A DNA stretch of 28,445 nt from Darksidea phi (taxonomy: Eukaryota; Ascomycota; Dothideomycetes; Pleosporales; Lentitheciaceae). The stretch covers positions 1 to 28,445 of the forward strand of contig JASJFT010000351.1 in assembly GCA_030770425.1 (NCBI GenBank). The letters run 5' to 3'. Below are positions 3,230 through 24,999 of this stretch, one piece after another (position 1 is the first letter of the stretch; every line of letters starts with the position of its first letter). Position numbers and translations under genes: made by a program. Under the pieces are notes generated by a model. The model worked only from the letters and a program-made list of their open reading frames with translations, made no database searches and had not been told where the DNA came from.

Positions 3230-3998
3230 CTTATTAGAATTTATACGAATCTCTTTAGTACTAATAATAAAATTTAAAAACTTTATCTTAGTAACTATAA
3301 ACTCGCTCTTTTTAATATTAACCTATAGTCTAGTCTTTTTAAGCTTATCTAGGATTTTACTTATATATTTCTTATACTTAAGGAGGTCTTCTAAATAGAT
3401 TAAGATATTATTTATATAAATAGTATAAATCTTATTAATTTCATTCTTAAGTACTTAATTAATATAGTACTAAAAGATTACTAGTCTATTATATAGTCTA
3501 AAAGATAGAATATAATATTTATAATTTCTATATTATATTTTAAAAGTTATAAGGTCTTCTATATTAGGGTCTAATCTAATATAATAAAAGACTTAATATA
3601 TATCTAGCTTAATAAAGACCTTTACTTTAAAGAGTTATATTAGTATCTTCTTAATTAAGAGAATAGTTATAATATCTTTCTTTATAACTATATTAATTTT
3701 TTAGTAGTTAATATAGAATCTCTACCTCTCTTCTAGCTTTTTAATAAATAGAATAGATAAGATAAAGTTAATATTATTAGTTATAATAAAGCTCTTTTTT
3801 AGGTACTCTTCTAAATAAGTATTTAATAACTTTAAATATTTAAGAAATATATTATAGAGTAAACTCGTACTAAGCTTATTTATATTATTTTTAAGAATAA
3901 TTTTATAGTTAATATTCTTTCTTCTAAAAGGTAGCTTATCTAAGTTAACCTTAAAGAAGTAGTCTAGGGTAGCTCCTATATAATCTTTATAAGGAAGC
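3230..3998 (-). pseudogene. Gypsy reverse transcriptase domain
   Basis: Reading leftwards from 3998, the frame gives LPYKDY, then IKLDIYQVFYYIRLDP (family KLDLRQAFHRIRM), then IQYRNYKYYILSFRLYN (family TRYGHYEYLVMPFGLTN), then IYINNILIYLEDLL near 3399-3420 (family YLDDILIYS), then KKSEFIVTKIKFLNFIIS. The catalytic DD pair reads NN because each GAT follows a T and was changed to AAT by RIP. These blocks occur in the correct order and spacing for Ty3/gypsy RT. The catalytic residues and reading frame are destroyed, so the enzyme is dead. Confidence 0.9.
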
Positions 3999-5929
3999 TT
4001 TTTTATTATTATATCTTATACGTCCTATTCTACTAAGTCTTCTACTAAGTCTTTTAACTATCTATTTCTAATTAATAAATTAACTTTATATAGACTAGTA
4101 GCTTTTAGTATAACTTCTTTCTTATCTATAAACTTCTATATCTTAGAAGGTTTAAGAAAATATATATTAAATTTATTACTAGTAGCCTACTCTAGTAGGT
4201 TATTAGAAATAGATATTACTTTCTTTTTCTTTCTATTATTTTTTTAATAATCTTATTAGCTTTTCTTAGATTTAGTATTTCTTAAATTACTATTAGTATT
4301 ATTATCTACGTTTCTTTATATTTTCTTAGAAGTAGTTTATTAGTTCTTTATTACTTATAGTAAGACTTTAGTAGACTTATAAACCTCCTCTTAAAGAATT
4401 ATAAAGACTTTAATAGAAATTTCTAAACTAAGTATTAGATCTTTTCTAAGTAAGTAGGTCTTCTTCTATACTTTAATTTATTAATTAATTAGATTATTAC
4501 GATATAAAGTATCGTTCTAGTATTCTAGCTCTAGTTTTAGATTCGACTTTTCTATAGTAGTTAGATTATATTTTATTTACTTTAAGGTATTATCTAGCTA
4601 ATATAAAGTCTAATTATAATAGTTAATTAAGAATTAAATTTATTTAAAGAACTTTCTTCTAAATATTATATCGTAATATTTAAGTTTATAAAAGAGAAAT
4701 TAAATAAATATATTCTTTCCCTAGATTAATAGATTAGCTTAAATAGTTATATCGACTAAGTAACTATATTTCCTATTAAATCTATTAAGAGAAATTAGTT
4801 TCTTTAATTAATAGAAGATAGGTATTAGTTTTTTCTTTACTACCTTTAAATATTTAAAGTAGACTAATAGGTATATACTAGTACTATTATCTACTAATTC
4901 TCTTAGCTATATAACTAGGCTATTTACTATAAATTAAATAAAGAATATAAATAATTTTAAATTAACGAGCTACGGTATCTTAATAAGTTATTAATAATTA
5001 AGAGATTTAATTACTCCTATATAGATTATTAGGAAGAAGCTCTTCTCTAGTAGCTTTTATTTTTTAATATTATAAAGAAGATATTAGAGTTATACTCTAA
5101 ACTATTTTTCTTTTTATATAAAGAGTCTAAATAAGCTTCTTCCTTAAAATTATTAAAAAAGATAATATTAACTTCTACTTTTATAGTATTCTATATTACT
5201 TTATATATAACGTAGTTAAGATAGTTTTACTATTTATTTCTTTTCTTATAATTAAAGTAATAGTCTTACTTCTTATACTTCTTAAAAGAGTAGTTATAGA
5301 GCTTAGAGACGTCTTTAAAGTAAATAGACTTCTTTTCTAACTTATTAGAAAAGGGTCTACTTATAGTTAGTTATTTTTTTTTAAAGATAACTAATTAATT
5401 ACTTTAGATAAGTCGAGTCTTTTAGTACTAGTTATTCTTAAGTAGTACTTTATTAGTTAAAGTTATATATTTATAAAGCTTACTAAAGATAAAATTATTA
5501 TTATTAAATAGATCTACCTTATTTCTTAGCTCGAAGTAGAGCTTATCTACGAATTCTTCGTTCTACTAGTAATAAGATAGATAGACCTTTATTATTAAAT
5601 ACTCGAAATTCTTAATAAAGTTATTAACTTTACTAAATACGTTTATACGTAGTTAGTAGAATTTAACTTTTATCTTCTTCTTTATATAAAGATTTTTATA
5701 GTATTTCTTAATATATTCTAATAGGTCTATATTAGATATAAAGTCTACTTTTTCTTTTCTAAAATTTAGCTATATTCGAATATTATTATTTTTTAATATA
5801 TAGGGGTATAAAGCTAAAATCTAAAAATTATATAAATAGATATAGCCCTCTACCTAAGTTATATAAAAGTATTAATATATTATTTTATATAATTCGCGCG
5901 TTTAATAGTATAAATAGGCCTAGTAGCTC

Positions 5930-10785: not shown

Positions 10786-11531
10786 ATATATATTATATAT
10801 ACTTTAATATAAGATTTAGATTAAGATTAATAGTATATTTATTATACTATTAGGTTCTAATATATTAGTAGTCCCCTTTAGGATTCCTATCTAATCTAGT
10901 TTAAGCCTTATTTTACTACGATTTACTATAAGATATTATATACTACTAAGTATTATCTAATCCCCTAGTATTACTCTATTTACTATATTTTATAGTAAGA
11001 TATATTATATTAAGATAATTAGCGCCTCGTACTTACTATATAATCTTCTTCTAATATAGATTTAATAATATACTAATCTTATAATTATATAACTTTTACT
11101 CTTATTAATCTATAGATTATAAGTCTTTTATAAATCCGTATATTATTAAGCTCTATACTAAACTATTAGATTCGTTATAAGAAGATAGATTAGCTTTTAG
11201 TACTATTAGTTAAGTTATATATAGCCGCCCTAGTACTATTATTACTTAAGATCCTATACTCTTAGATATAATACCTTTTACTATTTATACTAATTTACTA
11301 TAATTTTATACTATAAAGTATAGTACGTTTATAATAAACTCTAGTTAAACTATCTAGATTAACTAGATTATATATACTTTAAATATTACTCTCTATATAT
11401 ATAATAAGAACTAGAAGGACTAGAATAAATAACTTAATAACTATACTATAGAGTATTAGATAAAGAATATTCTTAATAACTTACTTATCTAGTTTATATA
11501 TAATTTAGATAATTTTATTAAGATTAAACTT
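10786..11531. other. Gap without recognised features
   Basis: This 0.75-kb AT-rich, RIP-mutated stretch shows no frame or repeat that I can assign. It contains related short sequences around 10905-10935 and 10955-10995 (variants of atttacta and agatatta) but no clear terminal repeat. It may be the 5' flank of the Helitron or remnants of the neighbouring transposon. Confidence 0.4.
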
Positions 11532-11690
11532 AATTACGAAGTAAGATATAAGTATAGTATATATATTCGGGTCTACTAAAGTAGAATATTCCTATTAGTT
11601 CTATAGGAGGTTAGTAGTATTACTATTTTCGACTAGATAATATTTAAATATCTTATAGCTAATTATTTTATACTATTATAGTACTATACC
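11532..11690 (+). repeat. RIP-mutated copy of the right-end sequence
   Basis: From 11532 the sequence aligns with 28227 onward at an initial offset of 16695. Over the first 40 bases every difference is a RIP-type transition (for example aattacgaag against aattgcggag). Similarity continues through gggtctactaaagtagaat and the segment around tttaaat and atagctaat to at least 11690. The right-hand copy contains a 22-bp duplication (ggttagagaaatt repeated) not found here. The two copies flank the Helitron, histone and copia regions in direct orientation. Confidence 0.85.
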
Positions 11691-14186
11691 TAATTACGAA
11701 GGCTATAGACTTCTTAGCTACTTCTCTAGCTATATCTTATTAAAATCCGCTATAATACGTAAATAACTAATATAGTAACTAATATCTAAACTAATACTTT
11801 TTTTTATATAGGTATTACCCTTTCTACTAAGAATACCTTTATTAAGTATTAATATCTTTAATCTAATCTAATAGCCCCTTCTATACTTAATATAATAAAG
11901 CTTTACTAGCTTCCTACGATTAATTTAAGAATAGTAGATAGAAGTACTAGTATTTATCGTACTATCTAGTTAGATAGAAGAGAGCTTAAACTAGTTATAA
12001 TAATAAACCTTCTATATAGAGTAGTATCTCCTCTTCTCCCTTAAAATAACTTAATCTTAGCCTTCTTTCTTAACTACTATTACTAATACTAGTATTTAGC
12101 TTAAGTATCCTAAATATATCCTTTATACTATAGACGGGCTTTACTACTTAGTTATTATTACCTTCTTAATTAATCTTTCGAGCGAGTAATAATCTATCTT
12201 TCTCTTAACTATTACGCTTTACTTAGTTTAATCTCTAGTATATTATACTAGTTTTAGATAATAGTATAGATATTAGTTATAGTATTAGTTCTAATAAATC
12301 TATTCTTACTCTTAATAACTTTAGAGAAGCCGAATCTTATATATATAACCTCCCTTCTATTCTATCCTAAATTAAATTTAATAAAAATAACTATTTAAAT
12401 AACTAAGTAATATTAGGCTTAGATAAAGTTCTAATTAATAAGTTTTATAAGGAGTTAAATAAAGAGTAGATATAAATATATATTATCTATAATTATTATT
12501 AGTTTTAGATTAGGGTATATAATTATAAATACCTAGTATATTATAATAATAAAGTTAAGTACTTTAATAACTTTAATTAGATTCTACTTTATAGGGCTAT
12601 AAATAGTATAGACTCTAGTCTATTATTAACTACTCTTTTACTTCTAATAGATATAAAGAAGATACTAATAGTCTAAGTATATATCTTTATAGAAATTTAG
12701 TAGTATTATAGATTATAGTAGAAGTATAGGAATTATATCTACTATTTTACTATAAATATTAATTAGATATTTTATAAACTTTCTCTTTTATCTTTTAAAT
12801 TAGATATTATTATTCTTAAGTTACTCTAATTAGACGATAATAATAGGGATATAATTAATTATTAGTTTAAAAAGAACTTTAAGATATACTAATTAACTAT
12901 ACTTTAATAGCTATTCTTCTTAAAGTATAATTATTCTAGTTACTATAATATTAAAATTAATTATAATATTATTTAATAGCTTCCTATAAATATATTTATT
13001 AATAATTAGTTTATTAAGATTAAGTATAATAATAGACTATACTTAGTACTAGGTACTAGACCTAATATATAAGTAGACTATTCTAGTCTATTTTATACTT
13101 TTATAAATATCCTACTTATATAGACTATATCTATTCTACTTAGGAATATAGCTAATATCTTATCTAATACTAGTAGTACTTTTATAGTATTCTCTTCTTT
13201 ATTAACTAATTCTAGTAGACCGTATATAAGTTAATCTATATTAAAGAAGTCTATTAATAATATAGAGTCTAACTATAATAGTCTAGATCTTACTAGCTTA
13301 GATAATAAAGATATAAAAGTAGATACGTTAGTTATATCTAATCTTCTTCTAAATATAGAGGAGTTTAAGACTCTCTACTAGTAAATATAAAATTAAAGAG
13401 AAATTATATATCTTATTATAAGTTCTATCTACTAGATACCTATTATAAAGTTTAATAGTCGGAAGTCTCTTCTTAGTCTTATCTTTTCTATCTTTTATTT
13501 AATTAGTACTACTAATTTTATATAGCCTTAGTAGTATATAATAAACTATTTTATATATATTTATTATATTATATATTATAAGAATAAATAATTTATATAC
13601 TACTCTTAGTTTTAATTTATTATATTTAATACCCTTCTATAGAGGTAGACTATAGCTAAGACTAATTTCTTTATTAATTATATAATAAATACTAATTCTA
13701 TTACTATAGAGGATATTAGGGTCGTATTTAATAGCCCTAATAATAGTCTATAACTAATTAATTCTATTATTTATTATTTTACTATAATTTAGGAATCTTA
13801 TATATATTAGATATAAAAGGGTAAAAATCTTAAGATTATAGTATATTCTATCTTAACTTTCTCTAGATTAGAGACTAATACTAAGACTAATACTAACTAT
13901 ATTATAAGTTTACTAGCTATTCTTTCTATATCTCTTTATTATATACTTTATTATAGATTATTATTAATATAATCTATTATAATTTATACCTTAGTTTAAA
14001 GAGTAAAATACTACTACTTCTATATAATATATACGACTTATTTAAGACTTTATTTAAAACTATCCTTATATTATATTATACTAGTTCTATTAATAATTTA
14101 AGCTATTTAAAAAATATATTATTAAGTTAAAGTTTAAAATTATTAATTTATAAAATTAACATAAGTAGTAAGAATATAGAAGTACT

Positions 14187-14195
14187 TATAATTAT
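14187..14195 (+). other. HUH motif of the Helitron Rep domain
   Basis: The codons tat aat tat read Y-N-Y, and each tat can derive from cat, giving H-N-H in the context EYRSTHNHSLY. Helitron Rep proteins have EWQ-RGS-H-HG at this point, two histidines that bind the divalent metal for strand nicking. RIP removed both. Confidence 0.7.
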
Positions 14196-14672
14196 AGTCT
14201 CTATTTTTATTATTATACTTTTAGTCCGAACTATAAGCTAGATAGCTAGAGTATAGAATTTTTAAGAAACTAACTTACTTAATATTAGAAATATTATATT
14301 AGTATTATCTACTCTAAACTAAATACTTAGAATATACTAGAAGATAGATTACTATTATTATTATTATTTAAGTAGATAATATTTAACTTTAAAAAGCTAG
14401 TCTCTATTTTTACTTATTACTATTTCTATTATTATTAGAATTTATATTATAAGAAGAAAAATAAGGTAACTAAATAGAAGGTTTATTACTTTAATATACT
14501 ATAGCTACTTAACTTAGGTCTATAATTTAAAAAGACTTTAAAAAAGATTTATCTTTATCTTTAATTTTATTAAAATTATCTTTAGCTTAATATATATAAC
14601 TAGGTTATAGCCCTTAATTAGTATATAAATACGAATATCTAGTTCTATACTAGTACTATTAGAGTAATAAAG

Positions 14673-14687
14673 TATATAGAGGTTTAT
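14673..14687 (+). other. Two-tyrosine motif of the Helitron Rep domain
   Basis: The codons tat ata gag gtt tat place two tyrosines three residues apart in the context IKYIEVYIIKEE, matching the Helitron block YIAKYISKAE. These tyrosines attack DNA during rolling-circle transposition. They are kept because tyrosine codons are not RIP targets, and the frame is the same as that of the HUH motif and the helicase. Confidence 0.75.
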
Positions 14688-15710
14688 ATTATAAAGGAAG
14701 AAATACTAACTCTATTATATAAAGAGATAGTAGTCTAAGTTCTTTTTTATTTAAATAATAAAAATATGTTCTTCTCTTTTACTTTTAAGCTTCTAAATAG
14801 GTCTACTAGCTAGTAGAACTATAATATTTAAAAAGTTTATTATATCCTCTTTAGTTTATCTCTATTTTACTACTCTTAGATAGTAGTTAACATTAATTAT
14901 TACCCTAAGATAGAATATCTAACTACTTTTATCTTTTAAAATTAGTAATAAGAGATATCTAATACTCCTAAAGATAATAGTAATAACTAAGTTTCTTTTT
15001 AGTAAGACTAGTTACCCTTTACTAAATATAAAGAGTAGCTAGCTATACTTAAAGAGGTTAACTATTTTAACTTTCTTCTTTATTATATTTACTATCTACC
15101 TTTTAAGTATTAAGCTTAAGTAAAGCTATATATCTTAAAGTATTATTCTTTCTATTTATTTATAATATATACTAAAGACTTTACTCGCGTTATACTAATA
15201 CTTTATTATTCTTTCTATTTAATTAAGAATATTAAGTATATTAATAGTAAGAATTTTATTATTTATATAAAAGTTTACTATAAGTATAAAGCTTTATATA
15301 TATATATTCCTAGTACTTATTATAAATCTATAGAATTAGAGACTAAAGAAGAGAATTCTAAGTAGGAAAATATAGATTTAGAGAATAACTCTTCTTTTAA
15401 CGAACTAGTAGTAAGATATCTAGGTTTATAAGAATTTATTATAGATAATAATAATATTAAAGACTAATCTATTAATTAAGTAAAAGATTAGAATAATTTT
15501 ATTTATAAAGATATATACGGACTTAATCTATTATATTATTAAAAGGATTAGAAGTACCTCTATTCTATTAATTAGATTATCTAGACTAATATCTCGTCTA
15601 ATACCCTTTAGTCTAAGTAGTAGCTATTATACGATATATTAGTAAATTATAATATAGTTTTTTAGTAAAGTAGTTCTTCTTCTTAACTTCTTATTAACTT
15701 AAATAGTATA

Positions 15711-15971
15711 GGTAGTACTAGTAAAATATATATAATAGAGGTAACGTTAATTACTTTAATAGAGATTATAGAGGCCCTTAGTAAAAGACCTCCTATTACT
15801 CGTTATATACTAACTAGTATAATAGCCTTTCTTATATTAGAAAGAATAATTAATTCTATATTCTAGATTCTAATCTAACTATAGAATAGTAATCTCTCTC
15901 TATTAGTACCCGTTACTCTTTAGTAAATCTAGGTATTATTTAAGAATATCTAATATATTATTATTAACGAG
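15711..15971 (+). other. Walker A and Walker B of the PIF1-type Helitron helicase
   Basis: The Walker A codons at 15711-15728 read GSTSKI and would be GSTGKT before RIP (ggt to agt after T, aca to ata). The downstream block KRPPITRYILTSIIAF matches the PIF1/Helitron sequence around APTGVAA. Walker B at 15966-15971 reads NE in YIIINEK, from DE in the family block LIIDEKSM. Confidence 0.75.
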
Positions 15972-17625
15972 AAATTTATAGTTAATCTAAGTATTCTCTT
16001 TTAAATATATATATAATATTATAAGATTTAACTAAGATAATAGTTATTTTCTTTTACTAAAGTAAATATTATATTAGTTAAAGACTTTTATTAACTCCTA
16101 CTAGTTATATATAGACTATTATTTAATAATTCCTATACTCTAAATCTTACTAATATTAAGGATTAAGCTCTTTATCTTAAATTTCGTTATATAATTATCT
16201 TAGACGTTATTATATAGTAATAAAGTAATATATAATTAGCTTTTTAAGAAGCTCTTATATATATTTATATTAAAAAGTTAAGATAAGCTAATTAAATACT
16301 ACTTATAACTTAATATTATATAGTACTTTCTTTAGTTAAATAAGATTTCTTTAGTAGTATTATACGAATCTATACTAAGAGGTATAAGATTAGCTAGATT
16401 AATTATTATTATATATAGAATTCGGGCTAACTAGTAGTTATAATAAGGATATTTTACGAGAATCTATAGGTAGCTATAATACCTCTAGAAGATAATAGTA
16501 ATCTTTCTAATAAGCTTTCCCTCTATATTAGTAGACGGGTAATACTTCTTAAAAATATCTAAATAGAAAAAGACTTAGTAAATAGTACTATTAAAACTAT
16601 TATTAATATTATTTAGGGTATAAATATTAATAATTATAAGAATATAACGTCTCTTATAATTCTAGTCGTATTTAATAGATATATAGGTTCTAGGCTTTAT
16701 TTAATAAATAATAGTTAGATTATAGTACTAATCTTTACTATTAATAAAGAGTTTATACTAGACTAGATAATTTATACTTAAATTTAGTTTTCTCTAGTAT
16801 TTACTTAGACTATTATAGTTTATAAGTCTTAGGGCCTAAGTTTAGAAAAGATAGTAGTTTATATTAGTAGGGATTAGGATTATACTCCTAGATTAATATA
16901 TATTATACTTTTATAAGTAAAAATATTAAAGGATATAATATTAGAGAATAGTTTTTCTTTTTAGTATTTAAAGTAGCTAAAAAGTAAGATATATACGTAT
17001 AGAAAGATAGATAAGACTAGAAGAGATTAGTAGTATATTTATATTAAGAATACTCTATTTTAGTCTATAAATATAAACTTTATTATTAACTAGATTAATA
17101 TCTATACTAATACTATATCTATATATCTTTAAATATAATATTATTATACTTTAATAATTACTTATAGTCTAATACCTAGACTAATATTAGATTATACCCT
17201 ATCTAGATTTCTACTATCTAGATATTACTATCTTTATCTACTTATATATTCTACTCCTCTTTATCTAGAAGTATAATCTATAGCGTTATATCTTATAGAA
17301 TATAATTAGTAGTATTATAAATTATAAAGAGAATTAACTTAATTATTAATAATTTATAATCCTTTATATAGGACTTTAGAAATATAGAAGTAAAAGTATC
17401 TTTAAAGAATTCTAGTAATTTAAGTACCTCTTTATCTTTTACTAGCTTAATTTTATAACTTAAAAACTTCCTATAGTCTTAATATAAGAAAATAAAAACT
17501 AAAATAGTATACTCTATACGCGAAAATAGTACCTAGAATAGTAGAAGTAAAAGGCCGGTCTTCTTATTAATAGTTATTCTCTTCTTATAGTTATAATAAG
17601 TAGCTATTTCTTTAATAGCTAATAG

Positions 17626-17672
17626 CTATAGTTATTAGTAAGACTAGACTAATACTAAGATTAATATCTTAC
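17626..17672 (-). other. Intron-like segment on the minus strand
   Basis: On the minus strand this starts GTAAGATATTAATCTTAGT, contains TACTAAT, and ends AACTATAG. Its first half matches the 44-bp introns of the histone-like gene; its second half differs. An upstream GTAAG at 17676 is an alternative donor. The CTATAG end could be CTACAG before RIP. Confidence 0.55.
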
Positions 17673-18504
17673 TTACTCGTAGTAGTTATAAACACGCTAC
17701 TAGTAAAGCTATAATCTATTTTTAGGAACGAAATTATATTATATAATAAGAAAACTATACTTTAAAGTAGACTTTATACTATAGTTACTATTAATATTAC
17801 TATATTAATAGTATACTCTAAAAAAACTTATATCCTTTAATATAGAATTACTAGTTATATTATAGAAAAAGGATTATAATATATTTTTATATACTTATAA
17901 GATATTAATATTAGTATTAATCTATTTAATATAATATATAGAACTTATAGTAAGAAGAGATTAACTAATTTTAGACTAAATACTATTTATATATATCTAT
18001 TAGGTATTAGTATAAATATTAGTCTATTAAGTAGATAAACTTATACTAAAAACTCTAGATAATATATATAGAATATATACTATAAAGATTCTAATCTTAA
18101 GAGTAATAATTTTCTAGTATACTCTAATAATAGCTAATTACTAAAATTCTTATAGGAACTACTAGTAGCTAAGTTATAAAATAATTAATATATTCTAATT
18201 AAACTAGTAGAAATACTAAATTATCTCTTTAGATAAATTATTATCTAAGTTACTAGAGGTATAGTTTTAGTTATTATTATCTTTATCGACTAGTATAAGG
18301 GATAAGTTTAAAAGGGCTTTATTATCTTTATAGATATATAGCTCTTTTACTATACTATAGATAAATATAGATAGTATATACTTATTATTAAGTTAAAATA
18401 TAATATCTTAGTAGCTATAATAGACTTTTTATATCTATATATTAACGTCTCTAGACTAGATATAGGCTATAGCTTACTATATAAAATATAATTCTAAGCT
18501 AAAT

Positions 18505-18548
18505 CTATAGATAGTTAGTATAGACTAATACTAAGGCTAATACCTTAC
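18505..18548 (-). other. 44-bp intron-like segment on the minus strand
   Basis: Read on the minus strand this starts GTAAGGTATTAGCC, has a perfect TACTAAC branch site and ends CTATAG (CTACAG before RIP). Its length of 44 bp equals that of the seven introns in the plus-strand histone-like gene, and its first 26 bases are nearly the same as theirs. Confidence 0.65.
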
Positions 18549-19011
18549 TTACTACTATATAATAGTAATATTCTTAGACTATAGATATAGTTAGCTTTTA
18601 ATTTTCTCTTTCTTAAATAGACTTAATATTCTATTAATAATATAGATAACTAATAGTCGGAATTTCTTCTATATAGTTATATAGTACTTATTAATCATAT
18701 TCTTATCTTTAATTAACTAAAATTATTTATTTATAACTTTATCGCGTACTTATAGATTCTTCCTAGTATTTTTATTTAAGAACTATTTAGTATTAGTCTT
18801 ATACTTCTTTTAATTAGCTATAATAAAGGGTATTAGCCTTAGTATTAATCTAGTAGCTAATAATATACGACCGTAAAAGACTAATATTAAATATAGTAGT
18901 AGTATATATTATTATTAAAGTTTAGAAATAAAAATTTAGAATTATTTACCTATAGCTATATTTATACTAGCTAGTAGTAAAGTCTATAATAAGACTACTT
19001 AATAATAATAA

Positions 19012-19533
19012 TAAGTAGTAAACGCTACTAGTAAGTTTCTATAATTTTTAATAGCTACTATATCTCTATCTATAGTATTATTATATTTAAATTTTTTACT
19101 AAATTATAATTAAAATAAGATTTTATATAAGAGTCTAATACTATAACTAATATTACGACTTCCTTCTATAATTTAAAATACTAGCTAGTAGGATTTTAAC
19201 TTTACTTTTAAGAATTTTAGTTCTTTTACTTTTACTACTAGCTAATAACTAGTTATATAATTACGGTAAGTAGTAAATACTATTAGTAAGTTTTAATAAT
19301 TTTTAATAACTACTATATCTCCGTTAATAGTATCGTTATATTTAAATTTTTTATTAAATTATAATTAAAATAAGATTTTATATAAGGGTTTAATACTATA
19401 ACTAATACTACGACCTTCTTTTACGAATTAAAATACTAGCTAGTAGAATTTTAACTTTACTTTTAAGAACTTTAGTTCTTTTACTTTATTTTTAACTTTT
19501 ACTACTAGTCTACTACTAGTTATATAATATTAT
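19012..19533. repeat. Tandem duplication with a 255-bp period
   Basis: Unit 1 (19012-19266) and unit 2 (19267 to about 19533) match along their length, from taagtagtaaa to the end agttatataat; unit 2 has a short extra segment near its right end. The period of 255 bp is 85 codons, so a reading frame would be kept through the duplication. The minus-strand frame reads as coherent protein in both units, which favours a coding duplication. Confidence 0.8.
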
Positions 19534-19788
19534 ACTATTTTACTCTATATATATATTTATCTAGTCTCTACTTTTATAAATCTTTTATTACTTTTCTACT
19601 AGATTATTAAGAACTTATTATTATAGTTATAGATAAAAAGCTCTCTAAGACTACTAAGAGTAAGATATTAGTCTTAATATTAGTTATTTATTAACTTTCT
19701 ATAATAAGAATAATATTAGTAAGTTCTAAGCTATTTAAGCTTTAACTATATATAAATAATTTCTTTACTAATAATTAGGACTATAGTA

Positions 19789-19953
19789 TAGACCTCTTTA
19801 ACCTACTACTACCTATTAAAGTAGACCCCTTTAATCTACTACTACCTACTAGAGTAAACCCCTTTAACCTATTACTATCTACTAGAGTAGACCCCTCTAA
19901 CCTACTACTATTTACTAAAGTAGATATTATTAATCTACTTCTATCTATTATAG
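19789..19953 (+). repeat. Five tandem 33-bp coding units
   Basis: Units start at 19789, 19822, 19855, 19888 and 19921 and are each exactly 33 bp, or 11 codons. In the frame fixed by the surrounding exon lengths a unit reads roughly QTPLTYYYLLE, which may have been QTPLTHHHLPE before RIP. The last unit is the most diverged. Another frame would give a proline-rich RVDPFNPPPPT unit, but it does not fit the exon phase. The array lies inside one exon of the histone-like gene. Confidence 0.85.
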
Positions 19954-20213
19954 CTAAGTATATAGATATATATTAGCCTTAGTATTAGTTTCTTTACTAA
20001 TTTTAGTAGTAGTATATAGTACGTAGACTACTAATAGTAATATTCCTATTTCTATCTCGCTTAGTAAATAATCTAGTCCTACTAAACTAAGTAAATAATC
20101 TAGTTCTACTAAATAAGTAAGGATCGCTTTTAATAACTAGGATAGTTAAATATATAATATTAATAGATAATAATCTAGTATTATACCTTTTATAGTAGCT
20201 AGGTAGACTACGA

Positions 20214-21160
20214 GTAAGATATTAGTCTTAGTATTAGTTCTTTACTAACTTTAGAAGGGGATAGTACTTATTCTAATAATAATAAATAACTAAGCGAATA
20301 ATCTAGTTCTAATAAAGTAGTAAGGTTCGTTTATACTAGTTAGAGTTTTAGTACTTATAAGAATAATAAATAATATTCTAGTCTTTTACCTTAGTAGACT
20401 ATAAGTAAGGTATTAGTCTTAGTATTAGTTCTTTATTAACTTTAGTAGGAGATAGTACTTATTCTAATAATAGTAGATAATTATCTACTACTAAATCTTT
20501 AATAACTATTAGGTAGACTTTAAGTAAGATATTAGTCTTAATATTAGTCCTTTATTAACTTTAGTAGGGAGAACTAATAACTAAGAAGAGAATAGTATAG
20601 TTTCTTTAATTTAGATATTTACGCGATATCTTAATCTAAATAACTAATAATCTACTTCTACTATAACCTCTATAAAAGCTACGTATACTTTAAGTAAGAT
20701 ATTAGTCTTAATATTAGTTCTTTACTAATTTTAGTAGAGAGGACCGATAATTAAGAAGAGAATAGTACTTATTCTAATAATAATAAATAATTATCTCGTA
20801 TAGAATCTTTAATAATAGTTAGATATACTTTAAGTAAGATATTAGTTTTAGTATTAATCCTTTACTAACTTTAATAGGATAGATTAAAGATAAAGAATAG
20901 AATAGTATCTTTCTAAATCTTATTTTAGAGTCTAATCTTCTCGATATATCTAAAAGTAATTACGAATCTAATAATACCTTTAAGATTACTAGGGTAAATA
21001 TAATATAATAATCTATTATCTCTATAAATAAGGTATTAGTCTTAGTATTAGTTCTTTACTAACTTTAATAGGAATAAGTAGTAAGTAGCTACGTAAAATA
21101 CTAGCTATCTTTATAAGTAAGATATTAGCCTTAGTATTAATTCTTTACTAACTTTAATAG
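20214..21160 (+). repeat. Array of seven near-identical 44-bp introns
   Basis: The introns are 20214-20257, 20405-20448, 20524-20567, 20694-20737, 20834-20877, 21028-21071 and 21117-21160. Six begin GTAAG; the one at 21028 begins ATAAG after a T, as RIP would produce from GTAAG. Each has a branch site TACTAAC, TATTAAC or TACTAAT about 12-14 bases before the end, and six end in TAG (CAG before RIP) while the first ends AAG. The sequence between is nearly constant (ATTAGTCTTAGTATTAGT). Neighbouring exons share repeated motifs too, so some copies arose by duplication of exon-intron units. Confidence 0.85.
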
Positions 21161-21458
21161 GGATAAGTAGTAAGTAGCTATATAAAAGATTTACTACTAT
21201 TAATAAGTCTACTACTATAAAGTAGCTATATAATAAGCTACTTAAGAAGCCGTATAAAGGTATTAAGAAAGCTAGTAAAGCTTCTACTAGTAATAAGTAG
21301 TTTAATAAAGATACTTAGTCTAAATATAAAAAGTATAACTATATTTTTAATTATATTAAAGTCTCTATTTTTTATAGTATTAATAATAAGTCCTATTAAG
21401 GTTAACTACGTAGTAGTAAGTATTAGTTACTTTTACTTCTTATTTATTAATATTAATT

Positions 21459-21775
21459 AAATATATAATAAGGGCTCTTTAAGAGATTTAGTACTTTTAA
21501 AAGACTATTAATTTTATTATTCTTTATATAGCGCTTAGCTATCTTATATACGAGATTACTAGAAATATAAAAGGTAGTAATAATCTATAATTTTAGACTA
21601 AGGCTTTTAACGTCCTTTATACTACTATTAAAGTCTATCTTATTATTATTTTAGAAAATATAGTTATAATATAGTATTAGTTCTAGTATTAGACTAACTT
21701 TTCTATAGCTATAAATCTTATAGCTATTTATACTAAGCGTATAACTATTATATAAAAGGATATTTATTCTACTTT
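21459..21775 (+). pseudogene. Histone H3/CENP-A-like histone-fold domain
   Basis: In the frame of base 21471 the sequence reads RALQEIQYFQKT (H3: VALREIRRYQKS), then a helix ending YLIYEITRN (RLVREI), then a loop and NLQFQTKAFNVLYTT (DLRFQSSAVMALQEA), then KVYLIIILEN (EAYLVGLFED), and finally NLIAIYTKRITIIQKDI at 21714-21764 (NLCAIHAKRVTIMPKDI). With RIP reversed at tat, act and ata, the last block becomes AIHAKRITIMQKDI, a hallmark H3 sequence. Loop 1 appears two residues longer than in canonical H3, as in many CENP-A proteins. Between LEN and NL lie 18 extra codons with an intron-like sequence (CTAAC at 21694-21698, TAG at 21706-21708), but the splice phase does not fit cleanly. After KDI the canonical C-terminal helix is not recognisable. 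Confidence 0.72.
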
Positions 21776-21889
21776 TTAAGTCGTATCTACTCTTAAATAG
21801 TAGTTTAAGCTAGTTAATATATACTAGAAGGAAGTAATAAATAAGTAGATTTAGACGTTTAAGACTATAAAATATAGACTAGTTTAACT

Positions 21890-22048
21890 ATTAGTTTATA
21901 TAGATTATATTTTATTCCTTAGATATTAGTCTAAATATTAGCTAACTAGAGCTATAGACTATAGAATAAGTCTATATAGGTTATATTTAGTTTCTTAGAT
22001 ATTAGTCTAGGTATTAGCTAACTAGGGCTATAGACTATAGAATAGGCG
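21890..22048 (+). repeat. Two tandem units with a 76-bp period
   Basis: The sequence ttagatattagtctaaatat at 21919 recurs at 21995, with the surrounding bases including gctaactag and gctatagactatagaata. Each unit contains ATTAGTCT plus GCTAAC and CTATAG, echoing the intron family upstream. They may be introns of a downstream gene part or an unrelated duplication. The period is not a multiple of three. Confidence 0.65.
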
Positions 22049-23099
22049 TTTAGCGCTATATAATAGACGATAACTAATAATCTAAAGCTTTTATTATAAA
22101 ATACTTACCTCGTAGCTTATATATTTATTATTAAACTTTAAATATTAGACTTATATCTAAATTAATTTTCTTTAATTTATAATTAACTCGCTCTATATTC
22201 TAATTCTCGTTTATAAAAGATTAGATAATTTTAAACCTATTATCTCTATACTATCTATTATACTAATTATAATTTCTAACTTTTTAACTCCTATATAAAG
22301 GTAAATTATAACTTACTTTAATATATTAAAGATTTAATATAAGGAATAAGTATAATAGATCTATAAGAGCGCCGAATAATATAATAAATATATTAGACTC
22401 TAGAATAAAATAGTTACTAAATAATAATTTAAATTAGAGAAGATAGTCTATAACTAGAATTTAAAGAATATTAAGTTATAAAGTATTATTTTTAAGAATA
22501 TATATACTAATTATTATATATCTTTATATATAAAGGGTACTATATATAAGATATATAGTATACTTAGCTCTAATAATAAAGATATAAGTCTAGATAATAT
22601 CTATAAGATTATTAAAACTCTTTAAAGGATTTTATCTAATTACTATTTATTAGTTCGTAAATAGACTAATACTTTTCGAAATATAGCTATAAATCTTAGT
22701 ATAGTAGATATTATTATTATACTCTATAATATTCTATACCCCGATAGTACTCTTATATATAATAAAGATTCGGATAACTTTCTCTCTAATATTATATATT
22801 TAATTAAGTTAGGTTATACTATACTAGCTTAGATAGAGGACTAATATAATAATCTTTATTATAGTAGAAAATAGATAGTTAATAGACTTAAATAAGCTCT
22901 AATAGAGTATAGCGAATTATAACCTATAAACCCTATTAAGACTTTTATTATTAGGATTAAAAAAGAGGAAGAGAAATATATTAATAAGTATTTTATAAAG
23001 TATACTCCTACTAATACTATAACTAATAATATAAATATAACTAATAAAACGAATACTATTAAACTAGCTAGTATATTAAGAAGTTAGAAGTATAAACTA

Positions 23100-23141
23100 T
23101 ACTTTTATTATAAGAAGTCTTACTATAGAGGACCTAACTAC
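23100..23141 (+). other. Zinc knuckle of copia gag
   Basis: The codons read YFYYKKSYYRGPNY. With tat and tac taken as RIP-mutated tgt, tgc or cat, this becomes C-x2-C-x4-H-x4-C exactly, the nucleocapsid zinc knuckle that binds RNA. It is followed by a lysine-rich stretch, as is usual at the end of gag. Confidence 0.8.
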
Positions 23142-24999
23142 TACTTTAAGCTATACTCTAAGAAGAAAGTAAAAATAGAAAAGAGAAGAAAAACTAAGAA
23201 GGTAAAAGCTAATACTATAAAAATAATAATAGATATAACTAACGTCTATATAATAGTTAGTCGCCCGTTATTATTATAAGAATAATCTTCTTCTAAAATA
23301 CTAGATATTCTATATAGTACTATTTCCTTTTATATAAATATTTCCCTATTAATACTTTAGTATACTACTTAGAATACGACCTATAAATATTATTATTACT
23401 ATAATACTATTACTAACTAGAGCGTTTATAATAATAAATCTAAGTTTATTATCTAGTTAGATAAACCTACGTCTATAATTAAAGACGTTAATAGTATATT
23501 ATAAGTCTAAGAACTAAGTACTATATAATTTAATATTACTAAAAGTAATAGTATAGTCTAGATTATTATCTTAAACGATATAGTCTTCGAAGAAGACTTT
23601 ATAATAAATATTATCTTATAAGCTCCTTTTAAATAGAAGAACTACTTTTATAATAGTAGTACTAATATACTTATAAAATCTAATAGCTCTAAGTTTACCT
23701 ATCTATCTAAGATAGATAGGATTTCTAATTTCCTAGTTATCTATAATAAAGAGGAGGTCGTATATACTATTATATATACTATTCTTTATAATAATTATTT
23801 CTCTTATACTATCTCTTATATAGTATATCCTTTATATAAGTAGTATATAATACTAGATTATTTAGACCTAGTAATACTAAAATATTTAGCTAAAAAGATT
23901 AATAGTATAGAGATCTTTAATATAAAGCTATTTAACTATAAGTCTTATAGTATAGTAAAATTATTATAAATCTTTTCTTATATACTAAAAAAATATCTCT
24001 TTTATATTCTAGGTAAGGTTTATATTAATATTATAGGACCTATTATATCTAAAGAATATAATAGAAAGTACTACTAAATACTTATTACTAATAACTTTTT
24101 CTAATACTACTAGATATCCTACTTAAATTCTAGAACCTTACTTACTAAAGAATTAATTAAGTAGTACGACGTTTAAGAGATAGAAATAGATCTCTACGTT
24201 AGTACTATTTATTTTAATAATACTAAGGAATTTATAAATAATTACTTCGAATAATATACTAAAAGTAAGAATATTAAACTAGAGTCTTCTCTATTATATA
24301 ATATCTTAAAAAATAGTATTACAAAGTATATTAATAGTATTATCTCTACTACTATATATATAATATATATTACTACTAGTATTCCTTAGAATTTATAGCT
24401 ATATATAGTATAATATTAAATATAGAATTAGAATTTTCTATTAATCTCTAGAATTTCTATTAAGAAAATATCTTATAAGATATATTAATCTAAAAATAAT
24501 ATTTCTAATCTAGTACTATATCTTATTCTTATTTATACCTTCGACTATATTAGTTATATTTATATATCTAAGGTAAAATATATATATAGTAAAAAATTAA
24601 TATCTTATAACTAAAAGAGCTATCTAGTTAGTATAATTATTAAGAATATATACGAGATATATATCTCTAAGATAAAAGATATTATTTATTTAGATATAGT
24701 TTACTAGAATTTTTATAATTATAATATTAAAATTACTATATCTAGCTTTAATAAGCTTTCTCTCTCTATTTAATTATCTCTAGTTACTAAGGCTTTACTT
24801 TCTAATATAATTACTAATACTATTAAACCTATAGATAACGACTAGTAGAAATAACTTTAAGAAGTAGTAGGATTATAATCTAATTTAGGGGGTAACCCTA
24901 CTAACGCTACTATATAAGAAGAGGACTAAGATAAGAATACTATTATACCCGATATATTATTAGAATAAGTCTTTAATAATCCCTTAAAGCTATATAGAA

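Follow-up and report, generated by a model that had tools for sequence, protein, structure and literature searches.

Does the heavily mutated contig JASJFT010000351.1 of Darksidea phi carry the remains of a histone gene and, if so, what kind of histone was it, what kind of mobile element carried it, and did it serve that element? The DNA analysed here (the window) is the entire contig, C281 in our numbering, with a length of 28,445 nt; the genome searched comprised 51.35 Mb in 477 contigs. CpA and TpG together number 0-3 per 1.5-kb stretch across the window, with the exception of the last stretch, which has 28. This near-absence in all but the window's last stretch is the mark of heavy RIP. 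The putative histone region shows the loss of CpA and TpG in repeated sequence by which RIP targets are recognized and has at least 23 RIP-damaged copies in the genome, which bears out the claim of a preliminary description of this DNA that the gene, or the element carrying it, had been repeated and mutated by RIP.

Identification of an H3-type histone fold

We identified two putative exons of a histone fold on the forward strand. Exon A (21469-21657), recognized by Pfam, alignment, PDB profile and RIP-compatibility, would encode helix 1, a loop 1 with two residues more than in H3, and helix 2. Exon B (21709-21800), recognized by alignment and PDB profile, would encode loop 2, helix 3 and the C-terminus, with the stop codon probably at 21798-21800. 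With stops read as Q, the window frame 21459-21800 matched the Pfam Histone family at E=0.001 with 19.8 bits, the curated cut-off being 26.4, and the remaining two forward frames matched no Pfam family.

The alignment comprised 18 of the 23 copies; the five lowest-scoring ones and a relative on contig C126 were left out. Pfam Histone was matched by 16 of these 18 copies (best E=3.3e-11), two having no match at E<=1. A profile of the 18 copies matched 172 PDB sequences at E<=1, of which the best 60 were all histone H3 (best E=2.9e-9), and the H3 matches form two blocks that jointly extend over helices 1 to 3. We also calculated a RIP-compatibility score, for which the change from the ancestral to the fossil codon must be explained by C>T and G>A substitutions alone in every copy. 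Host H3 is compatible in 53 of 87 columns, and its mean score of 0.620 compares with 0.187 +- 0.038 in 2000 shuffles (maximum 0.305) and with 0.108-0.264 in six slid registers. A chance resemblance to a histone in AT-rich RIPed DNA, for which one might cite the window copy, by itself under the Pfam cut-off, and the two copies without a match, is refuted by the multi-copy profile with its Histone matches in 16 copies, its PDB H3 matches and the shuffle test, and has a negligible probability.

At the level of sequence, these comparisons confirm the H3-type histone fossil that the preliminary description had proposed, including the profile match of its frame. The H3 features found comprise the profile match to the fold, phenylalanine at the start of helix 2 and the length of the C-terminus after KDI: all 18 copies have TAG where H3 would stop, 11 residues past KDI, as in host H3. 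The gene had probably diverged from H3 before RIP struck, because the incompatible columns differ for reasons beyond RIP alone. Among the hydrophobic H3 columns as far as loop 2, its end included, ten carry a change that RIP cannot explain in all copies, and nine of them stay hydrophobic, a class of residues that AT-rich RIPed codons favour too. When the 18-copy profile was searched against a protein database, there were 1454 candidates, none of them at E<=0.01, and no close intact relative was found.

The host genome encodes intact H3 (contig C6) and CENP-A (C454), as well as a divergent H3 variant (C422), all recognized by eye; other histone-fold matches in the genome were two of H2A type and one further. 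Among the 120 proteins listed, those of Lentithecium fluviatile (93%), Bimuria (90%) and Paraphaeosphaeria (88%) are closest to the host CENP-A fold, and Periconia is also among the near ones. These genera belong to the Massarineae, so the host CENP-A places the fungus in the Pleosporales, probably close to that group. The divergent variant (C422:12387-12635, loci L003 and L060), a gene with little RIP, is kin of Pleosporales H3 variants. It adjoins a divergently read ORF without a convincing Pfam match; its first intron puts the frame one base out, and the gene may be broken at this point. Another locus, C126:3008-3256 (L059), is a second RIPed and diverged relative of the fossil histone frame, with 40% identity.

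Canonical H3 or CENP-A

The preliminary description leaned towards CENP-A over core H3, citing a longer loop 1 and the long tail. The longer loop is real: by one fixed measure, loop 1 has 10 residues in the fossil and 8 in 10 of 10 canonical H3 proteins. For CENP-A, 59 CENP-A-like proteins were taken from the 120 listed and 51 of them were parsed by pattern; the same measure gave 11 residues in 39, 12 in 10, and 9 and 10 in one each. RIP-compatibility by itself cannot separate canonical H3 from CENP-A, the means being 0.614 (n=9) and 0.589 (n=59), respectively, and one CENP-A-like protein, at 0.639, adjoins the best H3 score of 0.641. Where helix 2 starts, all 18 fossil copies and all 10 canonical H3 proteins have phenylalanine, in contrast to tryptophan in 51 of 51 parsed CENP-A proteins, and this speaks against CENP-A because RIP cannot turn W into F. 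Host CENP-A is also compatible in fewer columns than host H3 (47 of 89 versus 53 of 87). In spite of the extended loop and the very long tail, capture of a gene for CENP-A, the centromeric H3, is improbable, and the lean towards CENP-A is not upheld: the phenylalanine found at the tryptophan position in every copy disfavours this identity.

Introns and the long tail

Two phase-1 introns adjoin the parts of the predicted fold. The first (21416-21468), placed by inspection, separates the tail from the fold; its acceptor is damaged in the window, and AG is kept in 13 of 18 copies. The second (21658-21708), 51 nt in length, lies within the fold at the point where the two PDB H3 matches break, and was placed by inspection and by counts: the donor, damaged in the window, is kept in 13 of 18 copies and the acceptor in 16 of 18. 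By inspection, both have the phase of the intron-like units of the tail, and with them removed the spacing on either side is that of H3. An intron that matches the 51-nt intron of the fossil in place and phase occurs in the C422 variant, but not in host H3 or CENP-A.

Upstream of the fold lies a tail exon array (19660-21160, forward strand) with eight intron-like units, which start at 19660, 20214, 20405, 20524, 20694, 20834, 21028 and 21117. It is followed by the last tail exon (21161-21415), identified by translation and rich in Lys, Ser, Thr and Asn as read. The units are 41 or 44 nt long, end in AG and contain a GT donor and a CTAAC-like branch site, some donors and acceptors being damaged. 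Spacings of less than 700 nt between units were analysed in 20 copies (the other three of the 23 are fragments); 133 of 136 equal 2 mod 3, although the copies are related, so that the spacings are not independent. Since the unit length is also 2 mod 3, the exons between the units are multiples of three. There are 18 distinct spacings, of which 16 equal 2 mod 3; the others are 484, the sum of 248 and 236 with a unit missed, and 139, a 1-nt loss from 140. Both the number and the length of the units vary between copies. From the last unit to the donor at 21416, which was found by pattern in four of six copies, the spacing amounts to 299, another value of 2 mod 3, and to 323 in the copy with a 24-nt insertion (L027), where the last tail exon measures 279 instead of 255 nt and the frame is kept.

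Stop codons in six copies number 171 in 1833 residues of the tail frame, 158 in 1878 of the next frame and 403 in 1833 of the third. These counts favour no tail frame over its neighbour, so the argument for the frame rests on splice phase. The tail and the fold most likely belonged to one protein, because the mod-3 spacing and the shared splice phase carry one frame into the fold, and we consider a single spliced product with a long Ser/Thr/Asn/Lys-rich tail very probable. The very long repetitive tail of the preliminary description is thereby substantiated, by the in-frame spacings as well as by the exon translations. No canonical H3 tail with modifiable lysines was recognized by eye in the translated tail exons of six copies. 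The constraints on unit length may in part be older than the capture, and they are preserved when similar units exchange sequence.

On the opposite strand, an intron-like unit of the histone-tail type is found at 18513-18551, and a putative second gene of the element may share introns of this type.

The carrier element

The preliminary description had put the histone inside a transposon block of Helitron type. This holds, and the carrier is larger than described there: we delimited a Helitron2-type element of 10,698 bp on the forward strand (11535-22232), inserted between TAAT (11531-11534) and A (22233). Match tables and alignment place the edges of the repeat family at ~11.53 kb and ~22.23 kb of the window. 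When the flanks were joined (150 nt each), the resulting sequence matched 26 other places in the genome over 300 of 300 nt, according to match-table lengths; two further matches are partial and of equal length across the junction, and one is of unequal length. Reading the 26 matches as empty sites gives the above bounds and no target-site duplication.

The 5' terminus (11535-11545), which is also the 5' arm of an asymmetric terminal inverted repeat, begins at the same point in all three copies compared (window, L071 and L072), and T(A/T)AT precedes it in all three. The 3' arm (22187-22197) lies 35 nt before the 3' end, and a RIP-compatible 11-mer is found there in 22 of 22 matched 3' ends; such 11-mer sites occur three times on this strand of the whole window, this one included. 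The 3' terminus (22218-22232) ends in ATTTT in all 22 matched ends, obtained from 24 scanned loci, and is followed by A in each; here the search pattern prescribed the end motif, the edge having first been seen by alignment. The element starts with TACGRAG and not with the TCAG and hairpin of the FoHeli1/2 subgroup.

A broken frame for a Pif1/Helitron-type helicase (15402-16601, forward strand) matches Pfam PIF1 at 15681-16115. The match has E=0.0016 in the window and was found in three of three copies, the best of them (E=6.2e-4) still falling short of the Pfam cut-off. There are 32 helicase matches in the genome, pieces included, and the helicase profile gave one weak PDB match, to an AAA ATPase (E=0.28). 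The Rep (HUH) domain PF14214 was not detected in the element by Pfam, which is insensitive on RIPed frames; a weak match to it (E=0.22) is located elsewhere in the genome, on contig C314. Six-frame Pfam scans of the whole element gave PIF1 only (E=0.45) and were so insensitive that even the histone was missed. As judged from these sequence features, the carrier is a Helitron2-type rolling-circle element, a relative of FoHeli1/2 but not one of them. According to match tables, the histone exon is present in 13 of 13 copies read as spanning the whole element.

The element also contains a direct repeat of ~270 bp (window 18987-19261 and 19267-19528), cross-copy matches of which are 82-89% identical. 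The flanks on both sides (11385-11534 and 22233-22382) belong to another repeat, of which at least 26 paralogs of equal length exist, and a zinc-knuckle-like stretch at ~23050-23200 points to a Copia-type retroelement. A 97-aa open frame on the reverse strand (3722-4015) resembles what we take to be part of a Gypsy-type reverse transcriptase.

Alternatively, the histone could belong to a hAT element of the Pyrenophora kind, nested in the Helitron and carried along. Such elements with an H3-like gene have been described in Pleosporales (PMC3538342), and the cargo half of the element consists of ~5 kb of unknown sequence. However, no hAT domain was found at E<=1 in 18 read-through fragments of the cargo half (16300-21461 on the forward and 16300-20502 on the reverse strand), a test that is insensitive on RIPed sequence, and of the hAT hallmarks (transposase, terminal inverted repeats and an 8-bp target-site duplication) the duplication is absent from the element ends. 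Furthermore, nine H3 variants resembling that on C422, including six from named Pleosporales, gave a poorer fit to the fossil (mean RIP-compatibility 0.554), and the hAT copy described for P. fijiensis (PMC6710886) is intronless, whereas the fossil keeps its introns. We therefore regard a nested hAT as quite unlikely and treat the histone gene as putative cargo of the Helitron itself.

Origin, selection and possible role

The course of events that we favour begins with a Helitron2-type transposon of the Pleosporales, which would have taken up a genomic, intron-bearing gene of H3 type near its 3' end. The captured gene would then have become a fixed part of the element, its long tail would have been assembled from exons with similar phase-1 introns on either side, and the element would have spread to at least 13 spanning copies before being killed by RIP. 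Taken as a whole, from capture, fixation and tail growth to spread and death by RIP, this is probably the best explanation. The presence of introns in the fossil points to genomic DNA as the captured material, in contrast to the intronless H3 of the P. fijiensis hAT, and the position by the 3' end agrees with the end-bypass model of gene capture as set out for fungal Helitrons (PMC5148889).

Did the histone serve the element? It could instead have been passenger cargo, a host H3 gene transduplicated by chance and never of any use to its carrier. Helitrons are described as carrying captured genes downstream of RepHel (PMC4289320), and the amplified H3 copies on hAT elements of P. fijiensis as having all been inactivated (PMC6710886). 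Nor did a codon-position test reveal selection on the fold: columns with transversions are distributed 3/2/6 over the three codon positions in the 18 copies, and a comparison of the C126 copy with the window gave 12/12/8, with no clear excess of changes in the third position. Against a mere passenger stand the presence of the histone at the same place in all 13 spanning copies, exon lengths that stay in frame across differing arrays, and the retained hydrophobicity at nine of the ten changed columns mentioned above. A passenger gene is a serious alternative, to which we give somewhat less than even weight. That the frame was maintained across differing tail arrays points to translation during the active life of the element, and on balance we lean towards a histone protein that was both translated and selected during that time.

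As to function, we propose, tentatively, that the long-tailed H3 would have joined nucleosomes with a tail that shows no recognizable canonical H3 tail, and would thereby have made silencing through H3 tails less effective, either at the element or at new sites of insertion; this role is possible, although rather unlikely. A wider version is slightly more doubtful still: the Helitron lineage would have evolved, by in-frame exon duplication, its own long-tailed H3 that entered nucleosomes and either countered H3-tail silencing or marked insertion sites, in a chromatin arms race in which two unrelated classes of transposons, hAT and Helitron, took up H3 independently within one fungal class. If intact relatives exist, it becomes testable whether a transposon encodes a nucleosome component in order to escape heterochromatin. 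The exon array with its shared phase-1 introns looks like frame-keeping growth by exons on a mobile element.

Comparison with known systems

In Pyrenophora tritici-repentis (PMC3538342), as well as in Pseudocercospora, Cercospora and Sphaerulina (PMC6710886), genes for H3-like proteins have already been described on hAT transposons, which in part anticipates what the preliminary description held to be remarkable, a mobile or amplified histone variant of centromere type. No report of a histone in a Helitron was found in the open-licence literature, searched by titles and abstract openings; one may exist in print elsewhere. The word 'histone' does not occur in the main texts of two papers on fungal Helitrons (PMC5148889 and PMC4289320). 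In the literature searched we found no report of such a gene carried by a Helitron, keeping its introns or having a modular tail, and these features appear to be new here.

Like the fossil, the H3L gene of P. tritici-repentis, as described, is a divergent H3-like gene that resides on a DNA transposon of Pleosporales in tens of copies (PMC3538342). That hAT element has terminal inverted repeats, measures ~5.6 kb or 2.3 kb and is mostly intact, in contrast to the RIPed Helitron2-type element with its long modular tail. Two 158-aa proteins in our set (P0011 and P0012) are probably products of this H3L. The hAT elements of P. fijiensis and its relatives, according to their description (PMC6710886), also carry an H3-like gene on a transposon of ~10 kb, with amplified copies inactivated by RIP and the original gene intact. 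They differ in their 20-bp terminal inverted repeats, 8-bp target-site duplication and intronless H3 copy, whereas the element analysed here has no target-site duplication, keeps introns and has a long tail. For the second of the H3-like copies on the P. fijiensis element, a 16-residue insertion is reported (PMC6710886); by analogy with the 51-nt intron of the fossil, which reads as a 17-codon insertion, it may be an unspliced intron.

With FoHeli1 and FoHeli2 of Fusarium, as presented in PMC5148889, the element shares the ATTTT end, insertion between TNAT and A (T in one figure legend), the helicase and an asymmetric terminal inverted repeat tens of nucleotides before the 3' end. It differs in starting with TACGRAG instead of TCAG, in being about twice as long and in carrying a histone. 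Virus-encoded histones (reviewed in PMC9145170) likewise place an own histone on mobile or infectious DNA, but the carriers differ. The presence of H3-type cargo on two mechanistically different classes of transposons within one fungal class suggests that such cargo may be of use to transposons and not accidental.
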